This document shows, piece by piece, positions 2,214 to 38,700 of a DNA stretch of 64,000 nucleotides. The stretch comes from Cladochytrium replicatum (Eukaryota > Chytridiomycota > Chytridiomycetes > Cladochytriales > Cladochytriaceae), in the NCBI GenBank assembly GCA_025526935.1, contig JAHLKD010000005.1:1-64000 (forward strand), in the 5' to 3' direction. Under the pieces are notes generated by a model. That model did no database searches, was not told the origin of the DNA, and was given only the letters and a program-made list of their open reading frames with translations. Both the position numbers and the translations under genes were made by a program. Each line of letters opens with the position of its first letter. Position 1 is the stretch's first letter.

Positions 2214-3660
2214 TCACAATACTTTCCCCCATTTTCTAGGTGGATGCCTTTTCGTCGCCGACGAGCTCGCATATCCATGACATCGCACCCGATTTAAAGG
2301 ATCCTGCTCGTCCTCCACCACTCCAAAACCTCCGATGCACCTCCACATGCCCGTTGGTCCACCACAATTGAAATCATCTCCTGTTTCGACATTCCAGAGC
2401 ATCGTGACAGTAACCGCAAGCAAATTTAACATCTACGTTAGTATCCCGCATGTCCACCAATCAAGCATATGAACATCATATCCACAGGAACCAGCTATCC
2501 AACTTGAAACGAAGCTGAAACATGCTGATGAACATATATTTGAGATCGATCTCTGTGTTCTCCAGGAATCGAGAGTTTCTTTCCTTTGATTCCATCGATC
2601 CACCAACCGGACACCTCAGCGTTCCAAGTATGAACACTGGTGATCAACAAGAGATTATCCCACCGCAATTACCCTCAGCTGGTTCTCCACCGCTCCAGAA
2701 AGTCAGTATGGCCACTTTCGCTCGCATTATGCATCGCCTGAATGTCCATCGTAGCTCAAGCCCGCTGGTCTTCCACCACTTTAGTTTTCCAACTTTATAG
2801 AACTCGCTAGCTACATCCATAGTACCAGAAGTCCAGCGGAGCTCCAGCCTACACGTCCGCCACCATTGCAGCACCTCAGCTGAATGTGCCGAATTGCCTA
2901 CTCGTTGTCCACCATTCCAAACCGTCCATGTGACCGACCCATATGCTTGCTCTATTCACTGCATCGGAAGTCCGCTGCGCTTCCACCATTCTAGAATCTC
3001 AACACGTCCGCAATAGCTAGAGAGGTTGCTTGCGTCCTCGCTGTACTTCTTCGTTAGTCCCTGGGCGGATATTCACCAATCGAGGACTTTCACATGCCCG
3101 TCGATGCTAGCGTGGTCCATGCTAACAAAAGGATATCTGAGATCAAGCTCGCTTGCTTCTACCGCTCAAAGAACATCCACTAGTCCGCAGCCACTTGCAT
3201 AATCGATCCCCTGAATGTGTACTCCCAGTCCAGGACACTTGCTCGCCACCAGTCGAGAATCGCTGAGGTTTTCGCAGAGTTCACGGCAATTATTTTCTCC
3301 GTAGAACTGGGGAAAAATTTTGACTTGTTCGTCACCTAGGAACTACTTTTCACGATTGAGCGCTTCTTCCATCCACTCCTCATCCGAATGTGCGATTGAC
3401 CCAGGTTGGGGAACTTTTGTGTCACTTGCAATTGGTAGGCGGATCGAGTGAGGTTGGTCTCTGAGGTATCCTTCGATATGGAGCTCAAGCACAACGAGGA
3501 TGCCGAGTTTGCTCGCTTCGTTCATGGAGATAATTAGGTAGATGAGCCTGGACTAATCGAACCCACGTCGAAGATGCGCGGTCACCAGACCAAGGATCAG
3601 AAGAATTTTTCGTGAGCTCGACCGGGTGGGAAGTGCATGCTGACCGTCGTTGATAGTGTG
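2214..3660 (-). pseudogene. Decayed F-box-like / Trp-Trp repeat protein, copy A
   Basis: Reading the minus strand from about 3660, one frame gives ALPTRSSSRKILLILG, then VTAHLRRGFD, a TAG stop, then LIYLIISMNEASKLGILVV. This parallels copy B (LPNEVLDHTLLLLG ... AQHLRRRYFQ ... MLHILSMDEASTLGIVGV) with about 12 residues missing. A short open stretch ends at about 3343. Below it come repeat units with the core LKWWKTSGLELRWT, spread over all three frames with frameshifts and stops (for example 2644-2874, then EVLEWWRTSRIL near 2330). The unit is about 29 residues, ankyrin-like in its helix-turn-helix rhythm but not a canonical ankyrin repeat. Function unknown; the family looks lineage-specific and expanded. 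Clearly non-functional. Confidence 0.7.
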
Positions 3661-3839
3661 TTGACATGGTCGAGCATTCATAAGCAAAGGAATTTTCATT
3701 TCATCGTTCTAGTACTGGTGCATTGTGTGAGAATGATTGTTTTCCTTCTTTTGACGTCAATGCACCATAGCCCAAAAAAGAAACACTGGCTTACTGTTAC
3801 AAAGATTCAGATTGCGCAAGCCCACTTTTTCCCCACCAT

Positions 3840-4707
3840 TTGAGGACTTCATGATCCCAGGTCGTCCTTGCATGAAAGAACCTGCTGGCTGACAGCAAGT
3901 CAAAATCCAGGCCACTCTCTTTCCATCAATTCAGGACATCGATACAAGCACTCATCGCATCTCTAATCCGCTGTTCTTCACCACCACTCAAGTACTTCAA
4001 CATGCCCCCTCCAGCTCGCCCAAGAAGTCGCAGATGCCTCCATTTCAGTTCTAACCCGCTGTTTTTCCACCATTCAAGCGATTCAATTTGTCCGCTTTTG
4101 CTTGCCATGTCCATGGCAAGCTTAGTCCAGCTGAGCTTCAACCCACTCCCTTTCCACCACTCCAAGACACCGACATGCCCCGTACTTGCGAGGTCGATCG
4201 CAAAACTCGAGTACTTAAGCTCCAGCCCGCTCGTTCGCCACCATTCAAGCACGTCAAGGTGTCCATTTTTGCTCGCGTAGTCGACCGACACGATAGTAAG
4301 TGCAAACCGCCATTTTTCCACCAGTTGTATGCATTGGGAGCCAGGGCAGTGGTAATTGGAAGTAAACGATGAGGAGCGCGTGAGTCGTTCGACGATGTGG
4401 ATAGTCGAAACATTGCAAATTCGGAAAGTTTGCCGATTGGTGATCTGCCCTTACAAGCAAGGATTGGTGTGGTGGGGGGAGGCGAGCTGGATTCAGCTTC
4501 GATGCGCCGTTCGATGTGAAGCTGAAGCACTCCAACTATGCCTAGCGTGCTGGCTTCGTCCATTGAGAGTATGTGTAACATGAGTTGCGACTGGAAGTAT
4601 CGTCGGCGAAGATGCTGTGCGATTCGGAAGGCGAAGACAGCATCTCCTAGCCATTCCCCTAATAGCAAAAGTGTATGGTCCAGTACTTCGTTTGGAAGGC
4701 GACGCAC
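3840..4707 (-). pseudogene. F-box-like / Trp-Trp repeat protein, copy B (best preserved)
   Basis: Begins MRRLPNEVLDHTLLLLGEWL, a plausible short F-box-like start (inference), followed by a helical linker SMDEASTLGIVGVLQLHIE and repeats. The first repeat (NWWKNGGLHL) is broken near 4320 by a one-base change that moves the reading to another frame (IVSVDYASKNGHLDVLEWW). That frame then gives three good units of about 29 residues: LEWWRTSGLELKY, LEWWKGSGLKLSW and LEWWKNSGLELKW. Further on the frame shifts again (RGHVEVLEWW), and at a later unit one TGG of the Trp pair has become TGA (VLN-stop-WKESGL). The C-terminal cap ends LKWWGKSGLAQSESL. Removing these lesions would leave one continuous protein, so decay is probably recent. 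Function unknown. Confidence 0.7.
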
Positions 4708-4927
4708 CTTGGAGCCAGCTTCAACACTGCATTCAGCTTAAAATTGGTCGTTGTATAATATACTTGGTGATTGTTCCCGAAATAGCTTCACTTTGTGTAA
4801 TGTCCTTGTCACATATGCACACCGAAAAGTTTCAACACCATTCACACGTAAGGTAATTTCCATTCTATTCACTTCTGAGGACCGGTGCAGTGTGAGAAGG
4901 TTTTGTCTTAGTAGTTACAGCAATATA

Positions 4928-6020
4928 TTACCTTTTTCTTGAAAACACACAGTCGTTGCTGCTCCAAAGGTTTGGAGTTTTAAAGAAGCCAACTTTCATC
5001 CCACCATACGAGAGTTTTGGATCCCAGGCTTTCCTCGCGAGTTGCATTGTGCGGGCGGACAGCAAGTCATGTTCAAGCCCGCTCGTTTCCCACCAATCCA
5101 GGACAGTGATGCTGGCTGGGATCCGATTACTCGCACCTAGCGACCACAACATTGCTCCATTGCATCTCCAATTCAATGTTCTTCCACCACTCAAGTACTC
5201 CAAGGTGCCGCTATTCGTTGACTTACTCCACTTAAGCTCCAACCAGCTGTTTCTCCACCTTTCAAGCGTCTCAATTTGTCCGGCTTTGCTTGACAAGTCC
5301 ACAGCAAGCTTAGTCCGCTTCAGCTTCATTCCAGTGCACTTCGACCACTGAAGAACACCAGCATGCCCGTTCGCGCTTGCCTCCATCATGGCTTCATGAA
5401 TCCACGTAGGTTCCAGCGCACTGTTTTGCCACTAATCCAGCACCGCAACATGTACTCTCTTGCCTAGCCACATCAATTTGCTTGATTTGCCCATCCCCAG
5501 CGCCAGGCAACAGTTTCCTCGACCACTCCAACACACACAGCGATCTGTCCGTTTATGCTTGAGTAATCGATGGCAAATCCGGAGAAATTGAGCTCCAACC
5601 CGCTCGCTTGTCGATCGCGACGATGGTATAATGTAACCTGGAAAACAGGGTTCGGGATGCTGGAAACGAAAAGATGAAATCTGTTCCGGAGGTCGAAACA
5701 TTGAATATCTAAAGCGTTTGAGAATACGTGATACGTCCGTTTAATTGAGCATTGTGGTGGTGGGTGGTGGAGAGTCCGCCCGCTGGATGTGACGTTCGAG
5801 GTAGCACTCCAACGAAGTCGAGCGTGCTGACTTCGTCCATTGAGAGTATACGTATGATGAGCTCCGACTACACGAAACGTCACCGGAGATACGTTGCGAC
5901 TTTGTAGGCTAAGGTCCTCTCCTAACTGTTCTCCTAGGAGCAATAGAATGATGTCAATCAGACAAGACATGAGAGAACGAAGGGGTTCCCTGTAGCTTGT
6001 TGCAACACCAGGGAGTTTCG
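4928..6020 (-). pseudogene. Decayed F-box-like / Trp-Trp repeat protein, copy C
   Basis: Same architecture as copies A, B and D. The start region LMSCLIDIILLLLGEQLGED matches copy B's LPNEVLDHTLLLLGEWLGDA. After a frameshift the segment LIIRILSMDEVSTLDFVGVL matches the linker. Repeat units are scattered through different frames (GHAVGVL-like, VLQWSKCTGMKLKRTKLAVD, IETLERWRNSWLELKWS). The C-terminal cap VLDWWETSGLEHDLLSARTM aligns with copy B's cap, and a later shift hides TLVWWDESWLL followed by a stop. Several Trp-Trp pairs have degraded to WS or RW. It lies in tandem and in the same orientation as A and B, which suggests local duplication. Confidence 0.7.
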
Positions 6021-6475
6021 CTGTTCTTTTGGAGGAGTTCATGATAGTTCGTCTGTGTGGGAAGGACAATGAAAAGCAAATTGAGGATATGGAAGATGTG
6101 CATGAAAATATAGTACGTGCTAGCAATTCTCCTTTCAAAAACAACTTTTCAGGATAAGCTATGAGCGAAGCAAGTGACGCCGACAGCCATACATATTTGT
6201 CAATGAACCAAACACCACCTCAAGGTCTGCTGTCTTCATAATGAAGACGAGAAGTATTAGAAAAATACTCATTCACATAACACAAAACGTTTCTGTGTTT
6301 ATCAAATGGCAAACGAAGTCACGTCCATTTTCTTGTTGCTGCATTTTTTCTTGTTTCTCCCGAAAACTTAAAAAGCAAGCAGATGGGTTCAAAGAAGTGG
6401 GAAGACAAATAAAATGTTATAAAATCTGAACAAATCAAGCGGACAGAAAGAATCCTGGTGTGTGACAGTAGCCTT
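6021..6475. other. Intergenic, nothing recognised
   Basis: AT-rich stretch between copy C and the acyl-CoA dehydrogenase 3' end. No open frame with a recognisable family and no repeat was seen. Confidence 0.4.
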
Positions 6476-8529
6476 TTACAATTTCGCACCTTGATCAAGA
6501 ACAGAATGGATGAGCCAACCAATGACCAAAGCAAAAGAGTGATGTAATCGTACCCATGAACTGTGCAACCTTGATGGACTGGCGGATACCCAAGTCAAGC
6601 ATGATCTCCTCCGACCCGCCAGGGATAGCGTATGCTACAATAACAAATTGAATCAGGTCTCTGCCCAGAAAACATCAAATCGCTTCCCAACTCACCTCGC
6701 ACTTCACGGTACAACCTCTCAACCTTCTCGCCCTGTCCACCTCGGGAGTAACTCAACCCACCAAAGATCTGCGCCGCCTCGCGCGCGCAGTACTCAAACG
6801 TCTGCGTGCTCTGAGCCTTGAGCAACGCGATCGGCCCGCCGAGTTTCAACATCTGCATCTCAGCCGGCATGCGCGTAGCCTGGTAGATCAGCGTCTCCAT
6901 CCACGCGTGCGTAGCCTCGATCTGGCGGGCCATGTGTGCGAGCTTCTGACGGATGACCGGGTGGTCCACGAGCTTCTTGCCGAAAGTGCGGCGCTTGTGA
7001 GAGTACTTGAGGGCTTCCTCGTAACACACGCGCGCGAAACGGGTCGCTTGGATTGCGATGCCCATGCGCTCGTGGTTGAAGTTGTACATGATCAGACGGA
7101 AACCCTTGTTCTCCTTGCCGATCAGGTTCTCGACAGGTACCTTGACATCCTCGAAGGTGACGTAGGAGGTGCCCGATGCCCAGACACCCATGCAGGGCAT
7201 GTGGCGGGTGCTGACGCCGGGCATGTCGCGAGAGACGACGAGGAGAGAGATACCGTTCATGCCCTCACCACCAGTGCGGCAGGCAACGGTGAAATAGTCG
7301 GCGAACACACCGCTAGAGAAAGAGCATTTGTTACAATTGAAATTCGAACGCAACCCGTTGTCCAGCCTTACTTAGTGATCCACTTCTTCTCACCGTTGAG
7401 TATGTAGTGCTTCCCGTCGGCGGTCTTCTTAGCCTCACACTTGAGGTTGGCCACGTCGGAACCTGCGTAAGGCTCGGTGACTGCCAAACAAATGTTCTTG
7501 GTTCCGTCAAGGCAACCAGGGGCGATGCGCTGCTTCAATTCCTCAGAGCCAAAGTGAAGGATGGCGGGCAATCCAATACCCAGACCTGTGAAAATTAGCA
7601 TTTGATCAGAACGTTAATTTATCGTACTTCTTCTCCTACCTCCAATGAGACCCCAGAGTACACCACCAGAACCGCAGCGAGAAAGCTCATCGCAAATAAT
7701 GAATTCGTGGAATCCGTCAAACTCCTCGGGTTTGATACCGGCAGCGGGGCCACGGTGAGCGTACTTTGACCACGGGCTTCCGACGATACCGCCGAGAATT
7801 CCTGCATCGGCAGCCTTCTTGAATAGCGACTTGGGAATCTGTTTGGCTTCGTCCCATTCGTAGCAGTAGGGCATGATCTCCTTTGCGACGAAAGAGCGGA
7901 CGACGGCACGGAGACGGCGGTGGGACTCCTTGTAGTAAGGGGATTGCCAGTCAGAGTACCTGCGACGAAAAGATCATCAAGACGACGTCACTTGGTTGGG
8001 GTGAGGATGGTGGGTGACTCACCAGTAGGGATCACCGTACGGGACACCGTCACCGAATGTGTCGCCCTCCTCCATTCCCTCGAACACAACATCCTCTTCC
8101 CTGTAGCCAACGGGTTCGGTGGTCTTAGGTGCGGCAGAGCCGATGTCGCCGACGAGGAGCTTGGGACCCCATTGTTGGAGGATGGCGGCAGAGTGGAACT
8201 GGTCGAATTGTTTTGAAGCGTCCGTACCAGCAACCTTGATCAAGACTTTCTTTCCGCCCTATTGAGAAGATGATTCCAAACGTTGCAAAAAACGACAAGA
8301 GTGAATGGTCAGGCCGAGGATAGTGGCATATAGTAATGATTAACACGTACGGGGTGGTCGGCAAGGAACTTTGTGACATCGTACACCTGTAGACCAGACA
8401 GGAAGCGCAGTGAGTGATCTGTGGAAACGCATCTGAGGTGGGGAATGCAGCTACCTTCCCGTGTACGATGATCCAGCAATCCTTCTCGGTGTTGTGAGCA
8501 GCAACCTGCTGTGCAGTGAATGACGGCAT
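6476..8529 (-). CDS. Cytochrome b5 / acyl-CoA dehydrogenase fusion, probably peroxisomal
   Basis: Eight exons: 8529-8455, 8386-8351, 8258-8023, 7959-7640, 7585-7372, 7312-6696, 6634-6554 and 6489-6476, giving 530 residues. Residues about 1-80 are a cytochrome b5 domain; the heme motif HPGG is split by intron 2 (ADHP/GGKK) and the second heme His is in FDQFHS. The rest is a FAD-dependent acyl-CoA dehydrogenase: ICLAVTEPYAGSDVANL (FAD site), WITKNGVFADYF, RRTFGKKL, QIFGGLSYSRGG. The usual catalytic Glu of the C-terminal EGT motif is missing (AIPGGSEE), whereas a Glu sits in FNHERMGIA, the place used by isovaleryl- and long-chain acyl-CoA dehydrogenases. The last small exon gives a C-terminal Ala-Lys-Leu, a type 1 peroxisomal signal. 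No mitochondrial presequence is visible. Role inferred: flavin-linked beta-oxidation with the b5 domain as electron acceptor. Confidence 0.85.
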
Positions 8530-9337
8530 TGCAGAGATAATAATCGCTTGGGATTGTGCGGCGGGGACGATCGATTTTATAGCAGGAGAGAAAGCGATCA
8601 CTCACCGACTGACACGCAATGGAAAATAGAAAAATAGAAGGAAAATGAAAGGACAATAAGAATAACAATGGGGGGTGCAAGTGGTAGTATTATTCACATG
8701 GCAATTGTGTCATAGCGTTTATGATGGATGGTTGGTTGCACGTGAATGTGAATGTGTGCTCTGTTGCTCTCCGTCTCTGTGATTCCAGTGACTGATTATC
8801 TCCTCTCCCTCCCCTCACGTCATTTTCATGAGGTTGCATCTCTCCACGACGTCGCATCACACTCCACGGACCCTCCACCATAAGGATGGTCGCAAGTTTT
8901 GAGTGCGCTAGATGTGCGATGAAAAAAGCCGATCCCGTTCCTGAAATGCTTGGTATATATGTCCACATGTGGAAATATAAGTGGGACGAACCGGGAGAAA
9001 ATGGTGGGACCTGCCAATGGTGTCAGACGGACCCAGGCTGGTGACGCTACAATGTTTGGACAGAGAAGGACGATAAAATCCATGCCGAGCGGTTCTGGAA
9101 GTATGGGGGGAAGCGAGACGGAGCTGTCCGAGGAACCAAGGTTGAAGATGACCAGTCCTGAGAAGATCAGACATGCTCTACATTCATCTTCGCTAATAAT
9201 ACAACTAAGATTTTTGCACTTGAAACAACCAAAACGAATAAAGGCAGCCCGCACAGAGCTTGGCGCTTTCGGTCGCTTTCCTTTTATCAGCGCAACCTCG
9301 TGAGGCTGAACATCTCCATCGATTGAAAAAATGATGA
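8530..9337. other. Intergenic, nothing firm
   Basis: Upstream region of the acyl-CoA dehydrogenase and downstream of the TIR-like gene. A 180-codon minus-strand open frame (8826-9368) has no recognisable domain and no clear splice connection to the TIR-like gene, so it is not called as a gene. Confidence 0.4.
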
Positions 9338-10467
9338 TTACACTTGAATGATATACTTGCCCTCCCAAGTCGTTCCATTGCAGTCGTTAGCAATTTGCAG
9401 AGAGAAGTTTGCCACCGACTGGTCAAAGGCAGCAAAGATCTTTGCGGCAATTACTGGTGGTCTAGACAAGGGAATGGTCTGGAAAGCAATCGTCGCAATT
9501 TTTAGATCTCTGTAAGATACAGGGTAGTTCATGCATTTGATGGGGCACACACCTTACTTCCAGAAATGCCACCTGCAATTTGCTATACACGTTCCCGATC
9601 ATCTGCTCAAAATCCAACCACACGCTGAGCTCTTGCTCTTTAAGGTGGCCACAGGGAGACGAGCGAATCCTGTTTGGGATGATAACCAGTAAAGTTCATG
9701 ATCAGCCCAACTTTCCACGGAACAGTTCGAAAATTTGGACTCACTTAACTCGTAGCTCACGTATATACGTCCCAACGTAGCAAAGGATCCTTTCTGTTCG
9801 GTGCGGGATTCTTTCCGGCCTGGAAAGTCAGCTTTTCAGAACAGATCACTTGTCGATGTAGTTTGAGCAATTCAGGAACAATCCTGTCACAAAAGTGAAC
9901 CGAAACGATCGAATCATTTTGTAGCTTTGCAAAGGCGAAGGGTATTGTTCGCCGTTCAATGTACTCTATCAGAAGCACTGATCCCGTGTAACCGATAGAT
10001 ATCTGCCATGATCTCACGCACCGTTCGCTTTTTCAACGACTGTGAATGGCACGTCACAGCATCCCAGCGAAAAGTCTCGGAAACGGCATGATCATCAAGT
10101 TTCCCAAGAAAAAATGGAACCACAACCGACGCATTTGCCGACGCATGACTGAGCGCCATTCCCCATTGTACAAAACTCTGATCAGTCATATCATAATCGG
10201 TACCACTGATTCCAACCAAAAACATGTTTTATGCCTTACCCGAGCACCACCTTCTCATGGCGACTTAAGAGCATGTCAGGAGCGCCATTCGCGCATTCGC
10301 GGTGCCCTTCATGAACCCTTCACAGCAGTCATCGCCTACACGCGGGCATTTGACGTCCACCAATCTGTGGATCGGGCTGACTATATCATAGTGTTGCTCT
10401 GAATGCCCGATACAGTGCTAGGGTGATCTGCTGTTGCTTGGCGGTAGCTGATGAACACATCGTGCAT
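9338..10467 (-). CDS. TIR-domain-like protein, possibly a pseudogene
   Basis: The ATG at 10467 opens MHDVFISYRQATADHPS, the box-1 signature of TIR domains. Downstream, another frame gives VDVKCPRVGDDCCEGFMKG, matching the box-2 region, and then SFVQWGMALSHASANASVVV, the late TIR helix/strand. Between these blocks stop codons occur that short introns do not clearly remove, so the N-terminal half may be broken. The C-terminal half splices well: an intron from about 9985 to 9946, a second closing before IRSSPCGHLKEQELSVWLDF, and a third before LKIATIAFQTIPLSRPPVI, ending WEGKYIIQV. VWLDFEQMIGNVYSKLQ could be read as a second TIR-like segment, but this is weak. TIR domains act in self-association and some cleave NAD; nothing here fixes a role. 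Confidence 0.5.
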
Positions 10468-10788
10468 GGTGCTGTTTGAACATGCCCATGAGGCGGACTC
10501 TCCCAGCTTTGACCTGTATTGAGATCTATTGTAAACCCTTGGGTGCCACATAAATTTAGCTTTCGTATCCGGGAATGGATCGGCATATTGAGGAATAATT
10601 TGAACCAGCCATCATGTTTGCAACAAAGATACCTGGAAAATAGAAAAGAAATATTCCGCAAATTCGTATTATGTCAAACAACAAGAACAATCAAAAGAAC
10701 CATCAAATGGGTTGGCTCAGGAACAAGAAAAACGAAGGATTATCTATAAATACTAACTACTATCATCCTGTGGGGTCTTTCCCGAATG

Positions 10789-12415
10789 TCATGAGACATC
10801 GATCCTCTCGCCCTCCTCCCCAGTCGCCGAAACAGGCGATATCGACGCGGCTGCAACCGCCGCCGCAACTTCTGCCAACTCTGCCAAAGATCCCGTCTTC
10901 TTCAACTGTCTTTGCACATCATACCCGACTGTCTCACCGTTAATTCCCACCTTCTCATCATCTTCCATTTCATCGTTCTCAGAACCGCTACCTCCCGAGT
11001 CTTCATCGTCCTCTCTCTCCTCACCTATCTTCTCCGTCCTGGAAGAAACCGAAACAACCTTCTTGCTGCCTCCATCATCCGTCGTCCGTTCGATGGACAC
11101 GAGGGTCGTTCTCGATCGCTTGGTTGTCTTTGTGGTGTGCGACGAGTGGTACCTTATGGGACCCCCGGAACTCGTTGAACCGGTCTCGCTGCCCTGCGTT
11201 GACGCGTTGTCGTCGAGACTGCTCCCATTGTCAGCAGCACTGAGACCTCCGCGACGTCGCTGGCATATCCGGAGATGTCTGCGCAAGTTGCTTAAAACGG
11301 AGAAGGAACGCCCACAGCCCGGAATGGTGCAACCGAAGGGACGCTCGCCTGTATGAGTGTAAGTGTGGGTTGTGAGCGAGCTCGGGCGTGAGAACGCCTT
11401 GTTGCAATGTTGGCACTGTGAGTCAAAATACAGACTTTTAAAAAAAGTTTGTGCCACAGAATAATGTGAATCTTACAACGTAGCGTTTTTGCTCTGTAAT
11501 GTTTGCCGGCGGGAGGTCGGATTTGGCGACAAGTTCGGGCGGGATGGACGGCTTTTTTCTCCCACGCGGGGACTCGGCAACTTCCACCGCAAGTACATTG
11601 ATCCCACCAGTCGGGGAAACTTTGGGGACAACAATGATAGAATTCCCTGATTTATGGGAGATTTTGGTGTCATGATTCGGAGATGTGCCCTCCAGATATG
11701 GGTGCTCGACAGGTTCCTTCACTGGGTATGCCGCCTCAGGCGGAGGTGGAGGAGGGGGTGGGTGTGCGCAGTATCCGTAGCGCGGTTCGTGTGGGTACGG
11801 AGAGCTGCGAGTGTACTCCAAGCAAGCAACGTCACCGCAATTGCATTGTGGCGGGACGGGTGGGAGTGGAGGTTGGTAAGGAGCAGGGTACTCTGGAGAT
11901 CTGCAACAGCGGTCTGGAGCTGGGTACGGATACCGTGGATAGTGGTGGGGATAATGATGTTGTGAGTGGTGCGGAAGGTAGCGGTAGTCGTATGGGGGGG
12001 GTGATGGTGCGTTGCAGTACCAGGGATCTGGGTAAAGGGGAACCGGTGGCGCGGGGCGGGAATTGTAGACGTGGTTTGGAGGATATTCGAACTCATCAGA
12101 GTGACGAGCTAAAGGGTGCTCAGAGCGTTGGCGGATCGGCAGGGACGGAATGGGAGGGGAGTGAGATCGGTAAGTGTTTGAGACTGTAAGACTATTAGCG
12201 CATCTGCTGGGTTGGCCATATTGGCGAGTGTGCCAGCGGCCAGCTTCGGTCAAGTATTGTCTGGAATCAGAGTCTGAGCGTCCGTTCCGTTGGGGAGGGT
12301 AGAGGGAATCGTGGTGAGTGTGGCAGGGATATTCTCTCTGACGGGTATATTGGTGTGAGTGGTTGTGGTAACTGGGATTGTTGGGGTAAGTCCTAGCAAT
12401 GCGCTGTTCTTCCAT
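10789..12415 (-). CDS. C2H2/C2HC zinc-finger protein with Pro/Tyr-rich N-terminus
   Basis: Two exons, 12415-11477 and 11415-10789, give 521 residues; donor GTAAGA follows RYV and the acceptor precedes CQHCNKAFSRPSSL. The first 310 residues are low-complexity, rich in His, Pro, Tyr and Arg with a run of eight prolines. Two adjacent zinc fingers follow at about 314-365. The first is classical (CQHC...HTYTH) and is linked by TGERPF to the second, which has CTIPGC...HLRIC, so the last ligand is Cys rather than His. The C-terminal 150 residues are acidic and Ser-rich (EEREDDEDSGGSGSENDEME), then Ala-rich. TGERP-linked fingers in fungi usually bind DNA, so a nuclear transcription factor is likely. 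Target unknown. The start is the first ATG of the open frame. Confidence 0.8.
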
Positions 12416-12796
12416 GTTTGCTGGGTGTTAATTGAAGTGGTGCGTAAGCTAGATGTCGGGTACGCTCCGCACAGATCTCGAAGCAGCGGTCCAATTCGCA
12501 AACGAGTCCCGATCCAAACAAGCAAAAGTCCCGATCCAACCCAGCGGACCGGATCTTCGAAGCACTGCCACCCAACTCAGATCTGCAGATGGCGATCGCA
12601 GCAACTGGCAAGTGTGCAGCAGCGCCTCATTATCGATCTGCAGGTGCAGTGGTTGAAAGAGATCGCACTATTTATCTGGCATTGGATTGACACAATCAGG
12701 TACACTCGAGGTCAATGTAAAATAAAGAATGCTGAACCATCCCGCCGAAATAAGCTACAATTGGGATAGTGTGATAACAATGTTTGCAAAGAACTC

Positions 12797-14422
12797 TTAA
12801 GGGGATCGGCGACGCGCCGGGGGGGAAGCTGAGCGGTTGCGCTCCTTTGACCTGGCACGGTCACGGTCTCCACGGTCACGGTCTCCACGATCACGGTCGC
12901 CGCGGTCACGGTCGCGGTCACGGTCCCTGTCACCGTTGCGGTCGCGATCCTTGTCCCCGCGATCCGACCGATCGCGATCCTTGCGCTCTCCGCCGGGAGA
13001 TCCTGAACGCGGGGCCTTTCAACCACAAAAACACGGTCATTATTTTCCATCGATCCACAAAATTCTCCTTGTTGGTCACTTTACCTCCTTTACGTAGATC
13101 CGCTTGCCGTGGTAGTCGGTGTCATCAAACAACTTAATTGCCTCTTCCATATCCCTTGCAGTGGAAAACTCCACAATTCTAAATAATCAAGTCAATTTGA
13201 TGCTTAAAATGTGCCGCTTTGATTGAACGCTATTATTTGTACTCACCCGTCGCCATTCCTGTCGATATCTGCAAACACAACTTCGCCGGCGCGGCGCATC
13301 AAATCCTTGAGATCCTAGTTGGTCCAAAAGTGTGTCAAGGTCCCGCGGAAGAAATGCCGTGAGCTTTTCTAGCAGATGTCTCCCAGAGCACAAAGAGTCC
13401 ACCAAAGAAGAAACCAGCCTCCAGATAAATAGTAGATAGAAAGAGCCTAAACGACTAGTCCGCCTCATTGCAACGTCCAAAGGAGATGCTAACTAAATTC
13501 TTTCCCGAATCCACAGCCAGCTCGGAGACCAGAAGAATTCATCGGAGAGCCTCAACAGACTGCGCTTCTACATCCCAATGGCCCATTCGACTAATTGGAA
13601 CCCTGGCAGCGTTGTACAATCGATCGCCAACCAGAAGTGATTGAAATCTCCGCAACCAATAGGGATTGTGGATATACAGAAGTCGGTAGAAAGCAAAGAC
13701 CCAAGGAACCAGAATTGACCACGATCGAAGCAGTCCGAATAAACAACAGTCCATATCGACTCAATCAGTGAAAATGAAAAGAAGCCAGCTGTGTTTTCGA
13801 TTTTTGCTTCAGCACTGGCATCAAAAATAAGAAGAAAGGAAGTATCATCCACACCAAATTGAACGATCGAAACAACAAAAATATGGTGCACAATAATATT
13901 CATATCTTCACATTAGCCTTACCTGCCACGAAGTGCGACTCGGCAAGTGCTCAACCGTCAGTCTGGACCGAACCATCAGAACATCTAAAACCAACCTTTG
14001 TAGTTAGTTCGCACCTGAAGTTTCCTCGGAAAGATCGGCGGGGAGGGCTTCCATCTCGATCGCCGCGACGTCCACTACCCCTCTCCCCACGAGCCTGCTC
14101 GACTTGAATCCTGCAACCCCCAACACATTAACAATGTCTTCAAAATCCGAGCGATAGCACACCTTTCACCCATAAACTTTGAGCCATCCAGCTTCTCGAT
14201 ACAGTCGCGCGCATCGCGCTTGTCGTCAAACTCGACAAAACCGAAGCCGGACAGGAGTCGGATGTCCTTGACCCGCCCAAAGTCGCGCGACAGACGCTCG
14301 AGTTCGCGCTCGGTACAGTCACGCGGGAGACGACCTGTGAGAAGTAGGGATGTGAGTTTTAGCACCCAAACCAAGGGGGAGCGGATGGACTTACCAAAGT
14401 ACACACGGCAACCAGACGACAT
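12797..14422 (-). CDS. SR splicing factor, SRSF1/Srp2-like, two RRMs and an RD/RS tail
   Basis: Seven exons: 14422-14395, 14334-14163, 14110-14015, 13962-13923, 13314-13247, 13178-13085 and 13015-12797, giving 238 residues. RRM1 begins SGCRVYFGRLPRD (RNP2) and contains GFGFVEFDD (RNP1). A Gly/Arg linker follows (RGERGSGRRGDRDGS). RRM2 is the pseudo-RRM type: LTVEHLPSRTSWQDLKDLM carries the SWQDLKD heptad diagnostic of SRSF1-like proteins. The tail consists of Asp-Arg and Gly-Asp-Arg repeats and ends SASPPARRRSP. This is a nuclear pre-mRNA splicing regulator that binds exonic RNA. Intron 4 is 608 nt, about ten times the others, and interrupts RRM2 just before DLKDLM. Many SR genes regulate themselves through such introns; that reading is inference here. 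Confidence 0.88.
13315..13922 (-). other. Unusually long intron inside the SR-protein gene
   Basis: Donor GTAAGG follows TSWQ and an acceptor CTAG precedes DLKD. No recognisable protein family was found on either strand in this 608-nt stretch. Its other introns are roughly 50-75 nt. It may hold a cassette (poison) exon or an inserted element. Confidence 0.6.
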
Positions 14423-14879
14423 CTTTTCGGTGGGTTTGCCTATGGACCCAGCCACACGTTTAATTTTCGATAACAAAAAGCTTCCATTCTTTTGTGATTG
14501 GTTTCCAATCTGAATAGTCAAAAGAGCATCGAAGTTTTGTTTATTGACAGGGACAAATCACTAATCATAATAATTAATTCTCAGCTCTGAGAACCGAAAG
14601 TGCGAAGTCTGAAATTAAACATATATTTATCGCGCAACGATAATCCTTCCTTAAAAAGGTAATCTCGGTAGCCTTTTTAGACATGCTCTAGTCTGTAGCC
14701 TGCTCGCTCCATTTCTTACCATTCCAGCATTTGCTTTCGTGGCACGGTTCCCCATCCAGTTCATTCCAGAAACGTTGGTCCCGACCGCCAATCCGACCCA
14801 GTGGATTGAGAATGCGACCCGGAATCCGACGTCGAGTTCATATCCACGGGTCCCTCCACGCATCAAAGCAACCGTTTCC

Positions 14880-16990
14880 CAAACAGCTTCCTAAAGCCGA
14901 AGGCATTGGGGTATACCAATAGCACTAATTGGCGATCCCAACGCAACATTGGTCCCTGGTCCCGTTGGGATACCCGAGGACTGGAAGACTCCAATAGCCC
15001 TATGCGTTAGTTTGCGTAAGAAATGCATCCGAGCTGATATCGTGGAGAAAAGATCAATCATAGCAGCCTCAGAACCAGACTCTTGAACTATCCATCATGT
15101 CTTTCGGGAAGTATGAGATGATCTTTGGGGCTGCTGCGATGGACAAAACTCCGAGGTAAGTTGCATTAACCCCAGTCCTGCCAAAGCACCAAAGAATCCC
15201 AAAAAACGAACGCTATCACCTAACGTTGGCGCATCCGCATCCGTGCACAGCGCCTGCGTCGCGAGGGGGTTCTCCTTCAAGAGCTGCTGTCTAAGGTTGG
15301 CTCCCGCCACGCCCTCATCGTTTCCAATGAACGCCAGCATATCACTAAAGTTTCCTTGCAAATTCGGCCACCAAGTGCCAGAGTTGACTCCCACAATCGG
15401 GATCCTCTTGTCTCTTGCAGGGATCAGCACAGGAACAAACAGCACTGTCGTGAAAGTGTGGCGATCCAGCCTGCGGTCTTGACAGGGTCGTCGTTGTTCT
15501 TGACGTTGGCAATGAAGCTCGCTGCGCGCCGACACCGTCGGTGGCTTCCGTGACCATTTCTGTTGTGGAGACGCCAGTGTCCACTCACCTCTGCCGAGAC
15601 CGGAGTGCCAGTTCGTCCAGAAACCAGAAGCACGACGTGCGTGGGAAGCATCAGTGAAGTAGGTGGAAGTACGGTTGACAGGGAACGCGCCGCCGGGAAG
15701 CCGGCATCGCGGGCGTTGACATAGGCGGTGAATCCAGACGTAAGTTTTGGGCTTTAAGTGCGGCGGATTTGTAAACTACCGGTCCAGTCCACAGATGTGT
15801 ATTGTCAACCTCGAAGCAATGATCAGAAATCAAATTTTTCATCGTTGTATTATGAACTTAGTGCTACCAATTTGGAAAAGTTGGGATAACGTCACCGCAA
15901 GGTATCCTTGCATATACTCCTGGTGGTCGATGATAATATGTATGATATTCGCGCCAGCGCAGTCAGAAGGGCCAACAGCGACAACCGGGATAGCTTTCGT
16001 GCGAAGTAAGTTGTAGATCTCGTCTCCTGCTTGTCCTGCTTGTCCGACGAGATTGGCGGCAAGTTTCGCACTAATACCACGATTGCATTGACTCTACTGC
16101 CTGATGTCAATCGAGCAACGAGTGCAGATTTGGCATCGGTAAGACTAGTTGGATCCAAATCTATGAGTTCCTCTAACGTTATTTGAATCACATTAGTCCC
16201 CGCACGAGCACCAGCGCAAACGGCATCCGTTGCGGCATCGAGACCTTTCGAGGGATTCACACAGAGAACAAGAGCGCGAATTGTGATTGCAGATGTGTTT
16301 CTCAGTGACCTGGATCTCAATAGATCATATCACACTGTCATCGCTTTGTTCAATTCTTCTTACTGGATGACTTCATATCCGCTCATAGTAGAGTTTGAAC
16401 CAAGGTAGGAAAGATGCCGACTTCCCATCGACACGACCTGATCTTCTCCGCTGGTGACACTAAAGACGCTGATGCTGGAAAAGCTGTTGAGAGCTAGCTG
16501 GTATGCCGAGTTTGACGGGTTCTCTTGATTGGGAGATTGCTGATGATCGAACCGTGGTACCCGTGGTTGATCAGTCCCAACAAACTCAGCCCATTCGGAC
16601 TGTGTGATCGCTACATGTTAGAGTAAGTGTTTATATTGATGGCTGAATTATGCTTTATATGTATACATACATCAAAGCTGTCGAGTGCAACCCCTGGGTC
16701 CGCAGCACCACGCTTTGCGCCAGCAGAAAACCCTAGCATCTCGTCGTTACCAAAGGTGTACTTTGTGCTCAAGATGATCCGCACACTTTGACGGTTGAAG
16801 CGGGGGCAATTCGAGTTCTTTCTGAGCGGATCATCTTGTGCGATGATGGTCGAGGCATTGCTTGAGGATGTGGTGACTATTTGAGCGTCGGTGAGCGGGA
16901 TGCTTCCTAGCCAACAAGGTCCTCGCGAGGAGGGAGAAGCGTTTCGGATTGAGCCACATTACGATCGTTCAGCTCGAAACGGGGCATTGA
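14880..16990 (-). pseudogene. Decayed periplasmic-binding-protein-like (type I, sugar-binding) gene
   Basis: Minus-strand pieces in order: PCWLGSIPLTDAQIV, then IILSTKYTFGNDEMLGFSAG; after an intron with donor GTATGT, SEWAEFVGTDQPRVPRFDHQ; after another intron, TIRALVLCVNPSKGLDAATD and ITLEELIDLDPTSLTDAKSA. Next, in a shifted frame with no room for an intron, come GISAKLAANLVGQAGQAGDE and AIPVVAVGPSDCAGANIIHI. Further pieces are GFTAYVNARDAGFPAARSLS and RIPIVGVNSGTWWPNLQGNF...AFIGNDEGVAGANLRQQLL, then AIGVFQSSGIPTGPGTNVAL. The last blocks resemble substrate-binding proteins of the ribose/galactose type, where the protein binds a sugar between two lobes. In fungi such domains can form receptor ectodomains (inference). 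At least one frameshift and several stops indicate a pseudogene, perhaps of a two-domain protein. Confidence 0.55.
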
Positions 16991-17229
16991 CCGAGTCTTT
17001 TATATCTGATTGTGGGGACAAACACCAATCAAACGATATAATTGGATGTACTTATACGTTGCGTTTATGTTTATGTTGCTGCAATTTGCAAACATACGAA
17101 TGAAAGTGGGACAACAGCGCTTGTCATCTCTACGCTGACATTGGCTGATTCTGATTTATCCATGCCTACATCCTGTTCCGGATATCATGGATGTCAGAAT
17201 CCTATTATGCTGCTCTTTCATGAATGAGA

Positions 17230-18950
17230 AACATGAATCTGTGTGTAGACGACAAGAGCTGGGCCACGAAGCACTTCATGCAGACTCTTTAACGGCTAAA
17301 AGAGTACCGAGTCAGTATTTAGCATTTTGATCTAGGCAATCGTTTCAGTCCTCTTTTGTAGTGCCTCCCCAGTCATGTGACCAATCCACCATAGTACACT
17401 CCAATGCGTTATATAAATATTAGAATAATAAAATAGTTATGCTTCCTTAGCTACATCTAAATCTAGTTTATCTTAAATTTTTGTAACATGTAAATTACAG
17501 CCGGAAGATGGTTAATTTGGCTAATACGATATCGTGGATGTGGAGATAGCCTTTTATCTCTGAGTTTTTTAACGATCTCAGCGATTGGAGCTTCTATGAA
17601 TATATTCCTGACGATATGCTTCTAAAAATGTAAATGCTTCTACACATAATTATTACTATAAGCAAAACCATACTTCTATTAAATCAAGATATTTTTTAAC
17701 ATTATTGGTGACCCTTGCCATTATAATGGCTCGTTTATAGGGTTACAGGAAATATCCCTAGCTCCAAGATTATAATCTAGCTATCTATGAATATATTTGA
17801 ACAATGAAGGAAACATAAAGAACAGGTATTAACATTTATACGGTTAATGGATCAAACATTAAACTCCATTCTAAATTTAAATATGTAGATTCGTATTAAA
17901 CTAGTTAAAGGAGGGATTAAGTCCAATGCTAAAAGAAGCATTCCCAAATTAAATACGAGCAGAATAAACTTTTTTATAGATACTAAAGTCTTTGAAAAGT
18001 CCTAATATGTCTTTCTGCTGAGTTATTAGCCAGCATTAAATTATTAGTAGAGTTAGACCCCCCCGCATACCGTCTATTATTTAGGTTACAATAGGCCATA
18101 GCAGGTTACTTATTCGAAAAAAGCCAGCAGCCGGAATATAATATTAAAAATGAGTGAATGAATGAGAGCCTAACGGTCGTCAAATATGTATAACTTATAT
18201 TAATCCTTCATGGGGTCCAATTTAGAATAAATACCTATCAAATACGTTTTAAATATTTTGAAATTTAGTCAAAGACTTGCTTATCTAAAAAAAAATTAAA
18301 TTTATCATTTTGCTTAATTATTTTATAATTTAATTAATGTTTATACTATTACTGCTGCAACCGCATTCTTTAAATTAGGCCATAATGGCTAGGACAACAT
18401 AAAATTATCCCTTTGATCTCTTGCAATACCCTTAGTTTCTGGATTACAATGTACACAAGGCGTTTGAAAGGTATATCCTAATACTCCCTGGATTTGGAAT
18501 TATAAGTCATATTGTTTCTTGTTTCAGTATTAAGTCATCAATATAATAAAGTATGGGGTGTTATTCACTTTATTTTATTCACTTCAGTGATAAAAGTGTT
18601 AATATTTTTATTGTTTGTTATAAACTTAGATGGTAAAAATCGTATTTATATTCTTAAAGAGTCTTCCTATAATACCAATACTCGATATATCGAATGAAGT
18701 GTAGAGGCCAGACGTCGCATAAATTCTAAAAGAGTTAGCATTATCTAAAATACCTAAAATATTATCCAGTATAATTTGCAAACATAAAAGCAATTTTGCC
18801 AGGACTGATTACATTTGCCAGTGTACTGATTATATTGGTAATTAAATTCATTGACAAATCTTCTAAAGGTTCTGAATTACAAAATAGCCAGTACTTGATG
18901 TGTTATTAAAAACCACATATCTTATATTCAATACTTGTCGACCTGTTTCA
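17230..18950. other. AT-rich gene desert, possibly decayed repeat
   Basis: About 1.7 kb of strongly AT-rich sequence unlike both flanks, without open frames above 62 codons. A short minus-strand segment near 18370-18500 reads QGVLGYTFQTPCVHCNPETK and looks once-coding, but I cannot name it. No terminal repeats or target-site duplications were found by eye. Candidates are a mutated transposon or an AT-rich spacer. Confidence 0.4.
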
Positions 18951-19399
18951 ATCTCTCTCGTCCTGCAGTGCAGCTGATGTCAGCCTTGCACGATCAGTGC
19001 AAATGATACTGGATAACCTGATCACTGGACGGATTGGTGTACATCAAACTCTAGAACACCGAAGTGCAATCAATTTTCTCAAGCGAGAGAGCTCAATGGG
19101 TCTTGAGGAAATGTCCAGATGTGTGGCTAATAGTAATGTTAAAGGGGGTCACTTGAAACACATCTCGTCTTTATTACTGGTTCATTTCACTATGATTTCA
19201 AATTTATTTAGTTTCACATTTTCAGATCAAGGCACATGTTCTCTTTTAAGTTTGTTTGTTCGTCTGCACTTAGTATCGCAGAGTTGATTTCGAGTTGATA
19301 GTTGTGATACACCACCTTACGCTTAGCACCAACATTGTTCGATTAACTGAACTTTAAAGTTTCAAATAGTTCCGGTTCTTAACCCTCAGTTCGGAGAAG

Positions 19400-20940
19400 C
19401 CCACTGTCTAACCACCACCACGTCGAAACATAAGCATTCCAGCTGTCGATCGAGACGACAAAGCAATCCTTCCTCCACCTCATCTCGAGCCCACTGCCTT
19501 GCCATCTACGTGGCCATTAGCACGGCCTTGTGCAATGCCTCCTCATTCCACTGAGCTTCCAAACCGCTATTCTTCCACCACTCGAGCGTCTCAACATTAC
19601 CCTGGCTGCTAGCCATATTCATTGCCCCACGTGTCCAATGCATCTCGAGACCGCACGTCTTCCACCACTCCACCACTTCAACACTCAACGATTCCAAAAG
19701 CGCTCGCAAAGCTCATCGCCAGAACGGTGTACTTTTATTGAACGCCCGCAGTGTTCTTCCTGCAGTTGAGTACGGCGACATGGCCGTATTTAATCACGTA
19801 ATCCATACATGAACTCGTGTACTTGAAATAGAGGCCGCCTGTCCTCCACCATTCAAGGATCTCCACCCTACGTGCATGGACTGTTTGGTATACTCGCAAT
19901 CAAGTCCGCTGTTTCTCCACCATTCGAGAACCTCGGGGTTCTTTGCATGTACGTGCCCCCTCCACGCTGTGCATTGAGACGCCAGGCGGATCTGTATCCC
20001 AAACCATAAAGTTTATTTGATACAGGCAAAGGACCTTTCTAAGATGCCTTTCATGCCGTAGAGTACATCAAAAGCGATCTTGTTCAGTTCTGCACCCTAG
20101 GGCTTGCCGATGATGATCCCGCCCTTGGGAGAGCTCAATCAGTCAAAACGAGCAGGATGTTGTACTTAAGATTTTGCCAGTAAGATCCCACACAATGGGA
20201 ATATCCATGGTGGCAAACCAAAATCTTTCTCTGCTGTTTCTGTTGTTTGTTACATGTTTTCCTTCTATTGTTCTTGACTGGAGGAATTCTTTGTTTTCCT
20301 TTATTTGGTTGTTCTCAGTATCCTTTGTTCCGATTGTTTGGGTTGGGTTTCCTTCTTTTGTATTCGGGATGACGGTAGAGGACTTCTTGGTTGTCTTCGA
20401 CTTGACTCAGAGTAATTTCATTGGACAGACAGCTTGGAGGATAGGGGATGGATCAGAAAATCGGATCTTATTGGGAGGAGTTTTCTAGAAGGCTGAAGTT
20501 AAGGGAATAAAAGGTGTGTGACATTGCTCTTCAACAGACAAGAGCGTACACAGTTAATTGTCTCGTCCTCAAGTTTGTCTTTCGTAATTTCGTGCATGTT
20601 AGTCGTAATTTCGTGCATGTTAGTCGTAATTTCGTGCATGTTAGTCGGTCAGTTCGACACTCACGGAACGAGTAGGGCTGATTGATGAGTCCGCCTTCGA
20701 GATGGAGCTGCAGTGCAGCAATGATCCCATTCTCGCTCGCTTCGTCCATAGAGATGATGAGATGGATCATCTTGGACTGGATGCACCGTCGTTCGAGAGC
20801 TTGGCTGTTTCCGTTGTTCCTCATGAAAATTCGCTTCGATTCTCACGATGTGCAATGCAAAAAGGTTCCCACTTCCGAAGTATTGTCTCTGGATCCGTCG
20901 TACATGTAAATCTTGACTCCGCGACCAACTTGATGTGTGC
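19400..20940 (-). pseudogene. Decayed F-box-like / Trp-Trp repeat protein, copy D
   Basis: The linker segment MIHLIISMDEASENGIIAAL at about 20760 is very close to those of copies A and B. The N-terminal F-box-like part above it is frame-disrupted. Repeat units occur lower down: LEWWRNSGLDCEYTKQSM and ILEWWRTGGLYFKYTSSCMD near 19950-19820 in two frames, then VVEWWKTCGLEMHWTRGAMN and LEWWKNSGLEAQWNEEALHK at 19690-19510. The middle (about 20000-20530) holds no repeat unit I can recognise and may be an insertion; its plus strand has a hydrophobic 104-codon frame that I do not believe. It lies 13 kb from the A-C cluster, same strand. Confidence 0.65.
20583..20645. repeat. Three perfect copies of a 21-bp tandem repeat
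   Basis: The unit cgtaatttcgtgcatgttagt occurs three times without a mismatch. It lies inside copy D just after the linker segment, where 21 bp would add seven residues per copy in frame. Perfect identity points to recent slippage. Confidence 0.95.
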
Positions 20941-35729: not shown

Positions 35730-38700
35730 TGCCGGACGTGGTTGAGCAAGACATTGAGCAGGCATCGCATGCAGACCAAGAGATTCCTTCAGAATGCATG
35801 GAGCAAGACCCTCCAGAAAGCTTGTTTGCACTCGATCGGAGAATGGAAGAAGTATGTCGGAACTAACGTGAACTGTGTTCTCACGATTTCCATCTAGTTA
35901 TTGGGGGACATCCGTTCATTACTAGACGGGAGAGTCAAGGACATGGGATCGTCTGCAGCAGGAAGCCGTGAGCAACTTCCATTCATGCCGGAGCTGATGT
36001 AATTTCATTGTCATTGTTTTGATTTTGCTGAAACGGGACTGGAAGGGAATTTGAAAACTACAAAGAATTACGCCAAAATCGCCTTGAAAACATTCTTTCG
36101 CAAACCATACCTTCAAGAAGACAGTCATGTGGCGTACTTATAGCTGAAGAGGTGAGAATTCCCCACACATTTAACATCTATGGGATGAAGTCTCTAATAG
36201 TGTATTCAATGCCAGCTGAGGTATCATTGTGACCTTGGAGACCCATTCAAAATGGAAAACATGTTCCAAATGCTTTTGAACTTTTATATGTCAAGGATGC
36301 ATGAGATCCTACAGCAGAATTACTTATTGATGTCAAGATGGGCAAGATTCTGTGAGTTTACAATCGAAGATTAGATATTTTGAGAAATAATATTGATATA
36401 TGTGCTGGTTTTAGGCAAGAATTCCCAAAAACTTCTTCAGTTTCATCCTGCATTTAAAACCTACCAACAAAAGCTCAGTATTGAGTTTAAGGATTCACTT
36501 GAACGTTATGAACGATTAAAGAATATTGATGGGATGTTAAAGAGACGGAGCAGAGAGATAGAGGTGAATAAATGTTAAATACAGCTATATTACCGCTAAC
36601 AATTTAATAAGGTTGTGAACAATTCCAATCGCATAGAAGGTGAAAAACGTGGAGATGCAGTAATTAAAGGAAAGACTACTTCAGAGCAAAATAATAATCA
36701 AGCAATGAAAGGAAAAGATACGTACACAGCTGCAACTGGATCAACTGAGAAGTCAGACATAACCCCTGAATATTCCATCAGTGATATGATTGTGTTTGGG
36801 AGATCTTTGATCATGCGCATGAGAGGGCAACGCAATCTTAATCTTTTCATATCAAGAATTAAGGTTCGTGCAATACATATGTATAAAATTTCCATTAATT
36901 TTTCCAGACTATGGTTCACGATAATCGAACCCAAATTTTTAAAGATTACAATACTTTGAAGAAAATAAAGCCAGGGCAGTCACTACCATCTAGAATGGAT
37001 GACATGGATGGAATTTCAAGGTAGGCTACGCTTTACGCACTGATAAATATCTCAAAATTTTTTAGCTATATTGAGAATCCCCCACTCAAGGTGCCAAAAC
37101 CCGAAGACTTAATTACTGAGTTTGATCTACTCACATCAAACTTTCAAATTGAGACACCAATTGATATTGAAGATGGGCGTCCATTTGCATTTGAAATTGA
37201 CAGTCGATTCTATAAATATTTTGAACTGCAAGAGCTTCGTTGGTCCTTCCTGCCATATGAGGAATTCACAGACCTTGAACCCGGTAAATTACCTAATAAT
37301 GAAAAATATCAGAAAAACCATTCTTTTGGCCTGTCATCAAATTCTACTGCACAATATGAAAAGCCTACTGTTCAAAATGCAAGTCAGGGCTTAAACAGTC
37401 CATTTATATTAGCTGCTTTTCAGGCACAAGAACGTTTAAGACAATTAGCACAATCTTGTGGTCTTGTATCAAATGAGAACAAAATGAGTAATTTGCATGC
37501 AAATTTGATAGTGCAATAGCTAATTGGACCTTTAGAACTTAATATTTCAAGGCGAAAGCAGTCAGATTGGCTAAAAGATCAAGTCTTGAAGCCTGAGCTC
37601 GAATCCTGGCAGGAGAGCCAAGAAGAAAAGTTGTATAAGGTTAGTTAAATCAAAACTTCAACATTTTCTAAGAATCATTCTAGCTTAAAGAGATGGATTA
37701 TGAGCTACTTGTTGAATTTTCCCAGACTATATCCAGAGATATTAATAAAGTTGTAGAATTTCTCAAAGAAAAGGCAAACTACTTATGGGATTCAGCCTCA
37801 AAAATTCCAAATTCTCACCCTAACACAATTAAGATACAACCATTACCACAATCTTATAGTGAGGAAAAGAATCATAACAATCATCAAACATTCAATGAGC
37901 CAGATTTGAAACAAAATGAAAAGTCATCACCAATCTCAATTGACACTCTTCACTCAAAAAGCAATTTCCCTGAGAATCCGTTTAATTTTGGCATGTATTT
38001 GCCACATATTGTAAGTCAATGTGCTGGAAATAAAGATAAGGATAACATCCTACGGAGCAAAAAAATTCTTTTTGGAAATATTTTGAAAACAAATGCTGAA
38101 ACACAACTTTTGGAGCAAGAGATGCTGTCACTTAATATCTCAAAATCTCACCATCAACGGTCAATCATAAATGTGAGATTTTAGATACGAACCAAAAATT
38201 TTCCATAAGCTGACTGGCACACTAGCCGTCCTTGGCAACAATTTTTGCAGCCCACGAAGTTTATTCTTTTGTTCAGCTGAGACATTTACACATCAGGCAG
38301 TTACGTTTAATATTACAGCACCAGTTAAATTTTTTTCGATCAATTGAAAGAAGAATCAACATTGATGTACTACTTGAAGTTAAAAGCATTTGTTTCAGCT
38401 CTAATATATTTATAGGTTGCAAAACTAAGGCAATACACATCTTTCGATCTCTGTGTAAGCTGCAATGATGCTGAAAACATATGTTTGCTCAAAAAGGATT
38501 CAGGTCGAAAAAGACGAGTTTACAAAAAAGAATATGATTGCTGAAGTACTTTCACAATTGTTGGTACCTTCATGATTTTGGGATATTTAATCTAATCTGT
38601 AACAGTTTTAAAGAAAGCAGCTCAACTCTTACAAACCAACCAGGAGCATCAAATCTGTCTTTCAATGAAGATACAAGAATAATTGTGGATAAATGTCCAC

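Follow-up and report, generated by a model that had tools for sequence, protein, structure and literature searches.

A large family of proteins with short tryptophan-pair ankyrin repeats in Cladochytrium replicatum, and its decayed copies on contig JAHLKD010000005.1

The first 64,000 nucleotides of contig JAHLKD010000005.1 of the chytrid Cladochytrium replicatum (assembly GCA_025526935.1; this whole stretch is called the window below) hold four decayed copies of a gene that codes for a short head followed by an array of 29-residue repeat units with a Trp pair. All four lie on the minus strand (Table 1). Hidden Markov models (HMMs) of the unit and of the head, built from the rest of the genome with the window excluded, were run against the six-frame translation. 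The unit HMM (577 genomic units) returned 26 rows above 6 bits, or 24 matches once two overlapping pairs are merged, with 22 in arrays and 2 in the linkers. They occur on the minus strand only, all within 2.2-6.0 and 19.4-20.8 kb, and nowhere else in the 64 kb. The head HMM (51 heads) gave 12 rows above 5 bits, all of them inside the copy intervals. True head places number four, with 78.9 bits in copy 2, 38.3 in copy 4, 30.2 in copy 3 and 27.3 in copy 1; the remaining rows touch merely the ankyrin-like end of the head. Such clustering is far from what chance would produce. Frame shifts and internal stops show that every copy is broken, in agreement with the initial annotation, which had placed four decayed minus-strand copies in these intervals.

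The copies have decayed unevenly. The F-box-like start that had been described as common to all four is complete, with LPNEV, in copy 2 alone; it is fragmented in copy 3, and copies 1 and 4 retain its second half only. Nor is the Trp pair invariant in the dead copies, as had been thought: copy 3 reads LQWSK and LERWR. In copy 2, three of the five unit matches share a single open frame (4040-4288). Copies 2 and 3 are 79% identical in DNA across 145 bp and are therefore probably tandem duplicates of old date. In copy 4, the head and the array are separated by a gap that is either an insertion or a run of fully decayed units; a 21-bp repeat with 3.1 perfect copies lies at 20582-20647 within it.

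Table 1. Remains of the gene family in the window (positions in nucleotides).
Feature	Position	Strand	Content
Copy 1, decayed	2234..3624	-	head remnant 3472-3585; about 9 ankyrin-unit remains 2306-3260
Copy 2, decayed	3767..4737	-	complete head 4510-4701; 5 unit matches 3815-4288; border with copy 3 approximate
Copy 3, decayed, kin of copy 2	4928..5960	-	fragmented head (best 5799-5924); 4 unit matches 5072-5398; ends approximate
Copy 4 array, decayed	19355..20084	-	4 unit matches 19557-19934
Copy 4 head-array gap	20085..20659		575 bp without family similarity
Copy 4 head, second half, and degenerate first unit (SMDEASENGIIAALQLHLEGG)	20660..20806	-	head HMM match 20696-20800

Intact relatives of these copies, whose existence the initial annotation had left conditional, are numerous elsewhere in the genome. 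When the three units of copy 2 in the open frame were used as a query, at least 171 genome matches were obtained, the best non-self match at 4.7e-31. Since 150 of the 1871 first-look candidates were scored, the family counts are to be read as minimum values. Searches of the same 50.5-Mb genome with two head queries found at least 150 and at least 140 matches (150 scored of 238 and 220 candidates, respectively); together they mark at least 173 distinct places, which are spread over 83 contigs and include copy 2 of the window. A mark-recapture estimate of 179 was set aside, the two head queries not being independent, and a nucleotide pattern search for the [DE]WWK core (37 places) was not used as a count, very common words being skipped in it. 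Among the 173 head places, 118 stand in open frames that reach 200 residues or more, 38 in shorter frames, and 17 have a stop within the head. Head and units belong together: among the best-ranked 45 head-retrieved loci, which include some duplicates, three or more units above 10 bits are present in 43 and one or two in the remaining two, so that no locus lacks them; eight F-box loci examined as a control hold no family unit.

Frames that are complete within the retrieved loci (n = 45) code for 232-879 residues (median 406) with 4-25 units (median 11). Having been chosen as open frames, all 45 run unbroken and without introns from head to array; intronless members thus exist, a statement that we confine to these genes. 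The tail after the last unit measures at most 40 residues in 40 of the 45, in which there is thus no space for a catalytic domain behind the array. One protein (L010) has a tail of 269 residues, the second half of which is largely proline-rich; in the other 44 it measures at most 78. The NACHT and NB-ARC domains of fungal NOD-like receptors (NLRs) found no match in a Pfam scan of eight intact proteins at E 0.1.

The repeat unit can be assigned to a named class, which the initial annotation had been unable to do. The eight intact proteins chosen for the Pfam scan all match Ank_4 (E 1.6e-43 to 5.6e-15; 55.5-146.2 bits against a cut-off of 22.7), and two of them also exceed the cut-off for Ank_2. 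Of eight pieces from the window, one passes the Ank_4 cut-off with 23.5 bits and a second falls just below it with 20.7. The initial annotation had named two outcomes that would speak against its proposal, namely units that fall into ordinary Pfam ankyrin repeats and the lack of an intact copy in any genome; the units do fall there, and intact copies exist. It had rightly noticed an ankyrin-like rhythm and a unit shorter than the usual 33 residues of an ankyrin repeat. The spacing is 29 residues, about four fewer than usual, in 206 of 268 spacings and 33 in three (15 listed classes).

The pattern of the units, taken from a set of 306 that were anchored on the Trp pair and came from 32 frames, reads A-M-D-x-A-S-x-x-G-H-V-x-V-L-E-W-W-K-x-S-G-L-x-L-K-W. 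Some genes occur in this set more than once, clipped at locus ends; thinning of the later sets left 65 frames with 577 units. The Leu two positions before the Trp pair is conserved in 97% of units, Ser +4 in 92% and Gly +5 in 89%, and the Trp pair in 100% by construction. The form AxDxASxxGHVxVLxWWKxSGLxL aligns to the ankyrin pattern (PF13637, PF12796) but differs from it in length, in the Trp pair in helix 2, and in the absence of TPLH, the consensus having AMDxAS where TPLHxAA is expected. Among solved proteins, those closest in sequence to the units of the window are designed ankyrins, at weak values (1n0r, E 0.0066; 4qfv, 0.02). An AlphaFold model of the window units is too poor to prove the fold (predicted local distance difference test score, pLDDT, 49.8); it places helix pairs at the repeat period (H28-35/H39-48 and H56-64/H68-76) and found no fold match (best E 5.1). 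We are highly confident, given Ank_4 matches in all eight proteins, that the Trp-Trp unit belongs to the ankyrin repeats and has a shorter loop than usual. What had been taken for a separate linker between head and repeats is a degenerate first ankyrin unit, with the same pattern and no Trp pair.

The nature of the head is less straightforward. Its consensus is ATHLRRRHVQAELV, and intact proteins follow the pattern LPxEIvDxILilLG...A...At.lRRr.vQ..Lv. In a profile-profile comparison with seven F-boxes, the head scores 22.0 (probability 44.5), above the 18.8 or less of 100 column shuffles and the 10.2 of the reversed profile. The head alone against nine F-boxes gives 20.3 in hhalign (probability 42.1), with 200 shuffles at 17.1 or less, the reversed head at 10.3 and ankyrin slices at 5.9. 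The LPxExxxxIL pattern of the helix that faces Skp1 is present in the head by this same measure and, as F-boxes usually do, the LPxEIxxxIL helix stands near the N-terminus. Several results weigh against an F-box identity. The Pfam models PF00646 and PF12937 match none of 21 heads, and not one of 90 distinct F-box places in the genome (from 65 PF12937 matches and 71 PF00646 matches at E up to 0.1) overlaps any of the 173 heads. Searched against the PDB up to E 10, the head profile found six matches, none an F-box protein; an F-box profile from the same genome retrieves 50 PDB sequences. The likeness spans 27 columns with the seven F-boxes and just 14 (helix 1, LPxEIxxxILxxL) in the stricter test. 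The head consensus lacks what marks the second half of an F-box, namely a conserved Trp and an LW at the C-terminal end, and a single-sequence model, to which we attach little weight, is one long helix rather than an F-box shape.

Because the profile comparison beats its shuffles while the curated F-box models fail, the head is, as judged from sequence, F-box-like in its first helix only, and outside the F-box family by the curated tests. The label given in the initial annotation therefore survives for helix 1 and not for the domain as a whole. As to possible partners, the genome holds five Skp1 loci above cut-off (contigs C17, C39, C18, C49 and C127); most fungi have fewer than five. The sole F-box gene within 3 kb of any head (contig C83) was considered and rejected, since it is a separate frame without family units.

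Two readings of the family take the units as an ankyrin array and differ in the head. In the one that we tentatively prefer, with confidence a little short of even, the members are an expanded set of intracellular ankyrin adaptors in which the head docks to a shared partner, possibly making them substrate receptors of an SCF (Skp1-cullin-F-box) ubiquitin ligase; the four copies in the window are pseudogenes of this large, mostly intact family. The family itself, its repeat class, a minimum copy number, the decay and the purifying selection on four old pairs are results of the analysis; binding, docking and a role in ubiquitination are inferred. In the other, which is doubtful but credible, the adaptors have a head unrelated to F-boxes that packs on the array as an N-terminal cap or binds some other partner, with no link to ubiquitin. 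The failure of the F-box models, the empty PDB search, the 14-column alignment with its missing second half and, weakly, the single-helix model all speak for a head of this kind; against it stands the LPxEI...IL helix near the N-terminus, which outscored 200 of 200 shuffles and both controls.

The adaptor reading with a docking head places the proteins inside the cell. In 50 of 51 genes, a Met precedes the LP of the head by no more than 12 residues; the farthest in-frame Met is at most 27 residues from the head in 47 of the 51 and at 44-90 residues in the other four. With the start codon this near to the head, most genes offer hardly any space for a signal peptide, and the proteins are thus probably intracellular. 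That they are instead secreted or delivered into another organism strikes us as very improbable. Such a role would be in keeping with a large, divergent and partly clustered family, with a hydrophobic ten-residue stretch between first Met and head in 3 of the 51 genes, and with the expanded ankyrin sets of plasmodiophorid secretomes, of which 17 proteins of P. brassicae also have a SKP1/BTB/POZ domain (PMC12503489). It would also suit the scarcity of heads, relative to F-box matches, on the largest contigs: contigs C1-C21, a cut of our own choosing, hold 32 of the 173 heads and 35 of the 65 PF12937 matches (p 2.3e-7, compared without base counts per contig). The Met positions argue against secretion, although no signal-peptide program was used, as does the purifying selection described next.

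Four diverged pairs of paralogues have ratios of nonsynonymous to synonymous divergence (dN/dS) of 0.07, 0.26, 0.25 and 0.15 at dS 0.69-1.78, the largest of which is near saturation. These four old pairs have evolved under purifying selection, and they give no sign of diversifying selection as from an arms race with targets. Within the units, nonsynonymous difference (pN) is lower than synonymous (pS) at all positions except those of the Trp pair, for which both values are close to zero; pN is highest (0.30-0.45) at positions -17, -16, -12, -9 and -4. A recent pair has dS 0.016 and dN/dS 0.61, with too few changes for interpretation; its genes lie about 6 kb apart (G000:C63:192200-199850) and differ mainly at the C-terminal end. 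On a larger scale, adjacent heads are less than 20 kb apart in 33 of 90 gaps, where by our own arithmetic about 6 would be expected at random placement. Units of one protein resemble each other slightly more than units of different proteins do (0.486 against 0.460, with label shuffles reaching 0.477 at most), a mild indication of duplication inside arrays. A mostly neutral birth-and-death family, maintained by duplication and with no function common to the large repertoire, could account for the 55 of 173 heads that stand in frames below 200 residues or contain a stop, for the dead copies of the window and for the very recent pair, but is hardly to be expected given low dN/dS across long divergence and open frames that persist up to 879 residues and 25 units.

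The unit also occurs outside this genome. A scan of prokaryotic genome contigs found one locus, L087 (NYXK01000106.1, 57737-62051), in a metagenome-assembled genome (MAG) labelled Deltaproteobacteria (CPC1 67547). Its 689-codon frame codes for a PF02441 flavoprotein domain, then LPPEIWTLIFERVGDW, then Trp-Trp units like those of the family (unit HMM 2e-40; blastp to the family 2.4e-37); the Ank models do not match it at E 1. The head HMM scores -2.1 bits on the LPPEIWTLIFERVGDW stretch, so that a head common to L087 and the family is not established. It differs from the family in the fused flavoprotein domain and in standing alone, being the single matching frame in the record for one family protein query (2 matches). 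The same record has 38 Zn2Cys6 matches, one of them on C110, which coordinates and frame length identify as the contig of L087, and none of 14 control genomes has any. Because the Zn2Cys6 domain is fungal, the most likely origin of the contig is contamination of the MAG by a fungus, and the MAG appears to contain much fungal DNA. Flavoprotein/ankyrin genes of this kind are probably common in moulds; in C. replicatum itself, no counterpart of the flavoprotein part was among the matches listed (69 of 1030 candidates scored). As L087 lies on a probably fungal contig, the Trp-Trp unit extends beyond this genome and the expansion is the special feature: the family had been called lineage-specific, and that may hold for its expansion, not for its unit.

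Known combinations of F-box and ankyrin repeats offer partial parallels. Ankyrin-repeat protein B (PDB 5k35), which we take to be a bacterial F-box/ankyrin protein that Legionella injects, has an F-box followed by ankyrin repeats; its F-box matches an F-box profile (E 1.3e-6), whereas the family head does not. In pandoraviruses, proteins with ankyrin and F-box motifs form large sets that arose by tandem duplication (PMC5995976), but viral contigs yielded no sequence relative of our family with either of two queries, a single window query (8 pattern stretches) or an alignment (32), none being confirmed. Phage records held no relative. For a chytrid, PMC13391722 lists 116 protein-coding genes in an ankyrin cluster over 11 genomes. 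In the open-licence literature, as far as its text is accessible, we found no description of the family or of the Trp-Trp unit.

Some further observations concern the genome at large. In the 150 bases upstream of 45 genes, the most frequent words reach 13 for six bases (shuffles at most 11) and 6 for eight bases (at most 5), and the top words are all AT-rich. In the window, four successive 2-kb segments at 36001-44000 have a G+C content of 0.34-0.36, compared with 0.39-0.56 in the other 28. Matches to chitin synthase (PF03142) reach E 1.7e-226, although 4 of the 14 prokaryote controls also have weak relatives of that family, and dynein AAA_6 has 20 matches (up to 3.5e-159; 3 of 14 controls match, none above cut-off). 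Both are consistent with a flagellate fungus.

An intact member begins, as a rule, within a few residues of its short head, which is followed by the degenerate unit as a cap and then by 4-25 Trp-Trp units. Under the preferred adaptor reading, as an ankyrin array without an enzyme domain, the array would be a binding platform, and by its fold class its surface may bind a target protein. The head would most likely dock the protein to a common partner. The LPxEI...IL helix suggests Skp1 of the SCF ubiquitin ligase as the best candidate for this role, and docking there would make the family substrate receptors whose array picks the target. The five Skp1 loci and the many F-box matches show that the genome has components of an SCF system. 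New copies probably come about through duplication, both nearby and at scattered sites, and are lost to frameshifts of the kind seen in the window.

Taken further, well over 100 intracellular ankyrin receptors, each composed of the short docking head and a varying number of Trp-Trp units, might form a recognition library that feeds a shared degradation machine and replaces NLR-type receptors; we regard this extension as unlikely. If it were true, foreign or misplaced proteins, for example, could be recognised in this way in a zoosporic fungus. With its defined architecture, a unit that can be searched for and many open members in a single genome, the family allows direct tests of the partner of the head and of the choice of target. 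Should the head bind Skp1, fungi would have in this family a sizeable group of SCF receptors of the ankyrin type.

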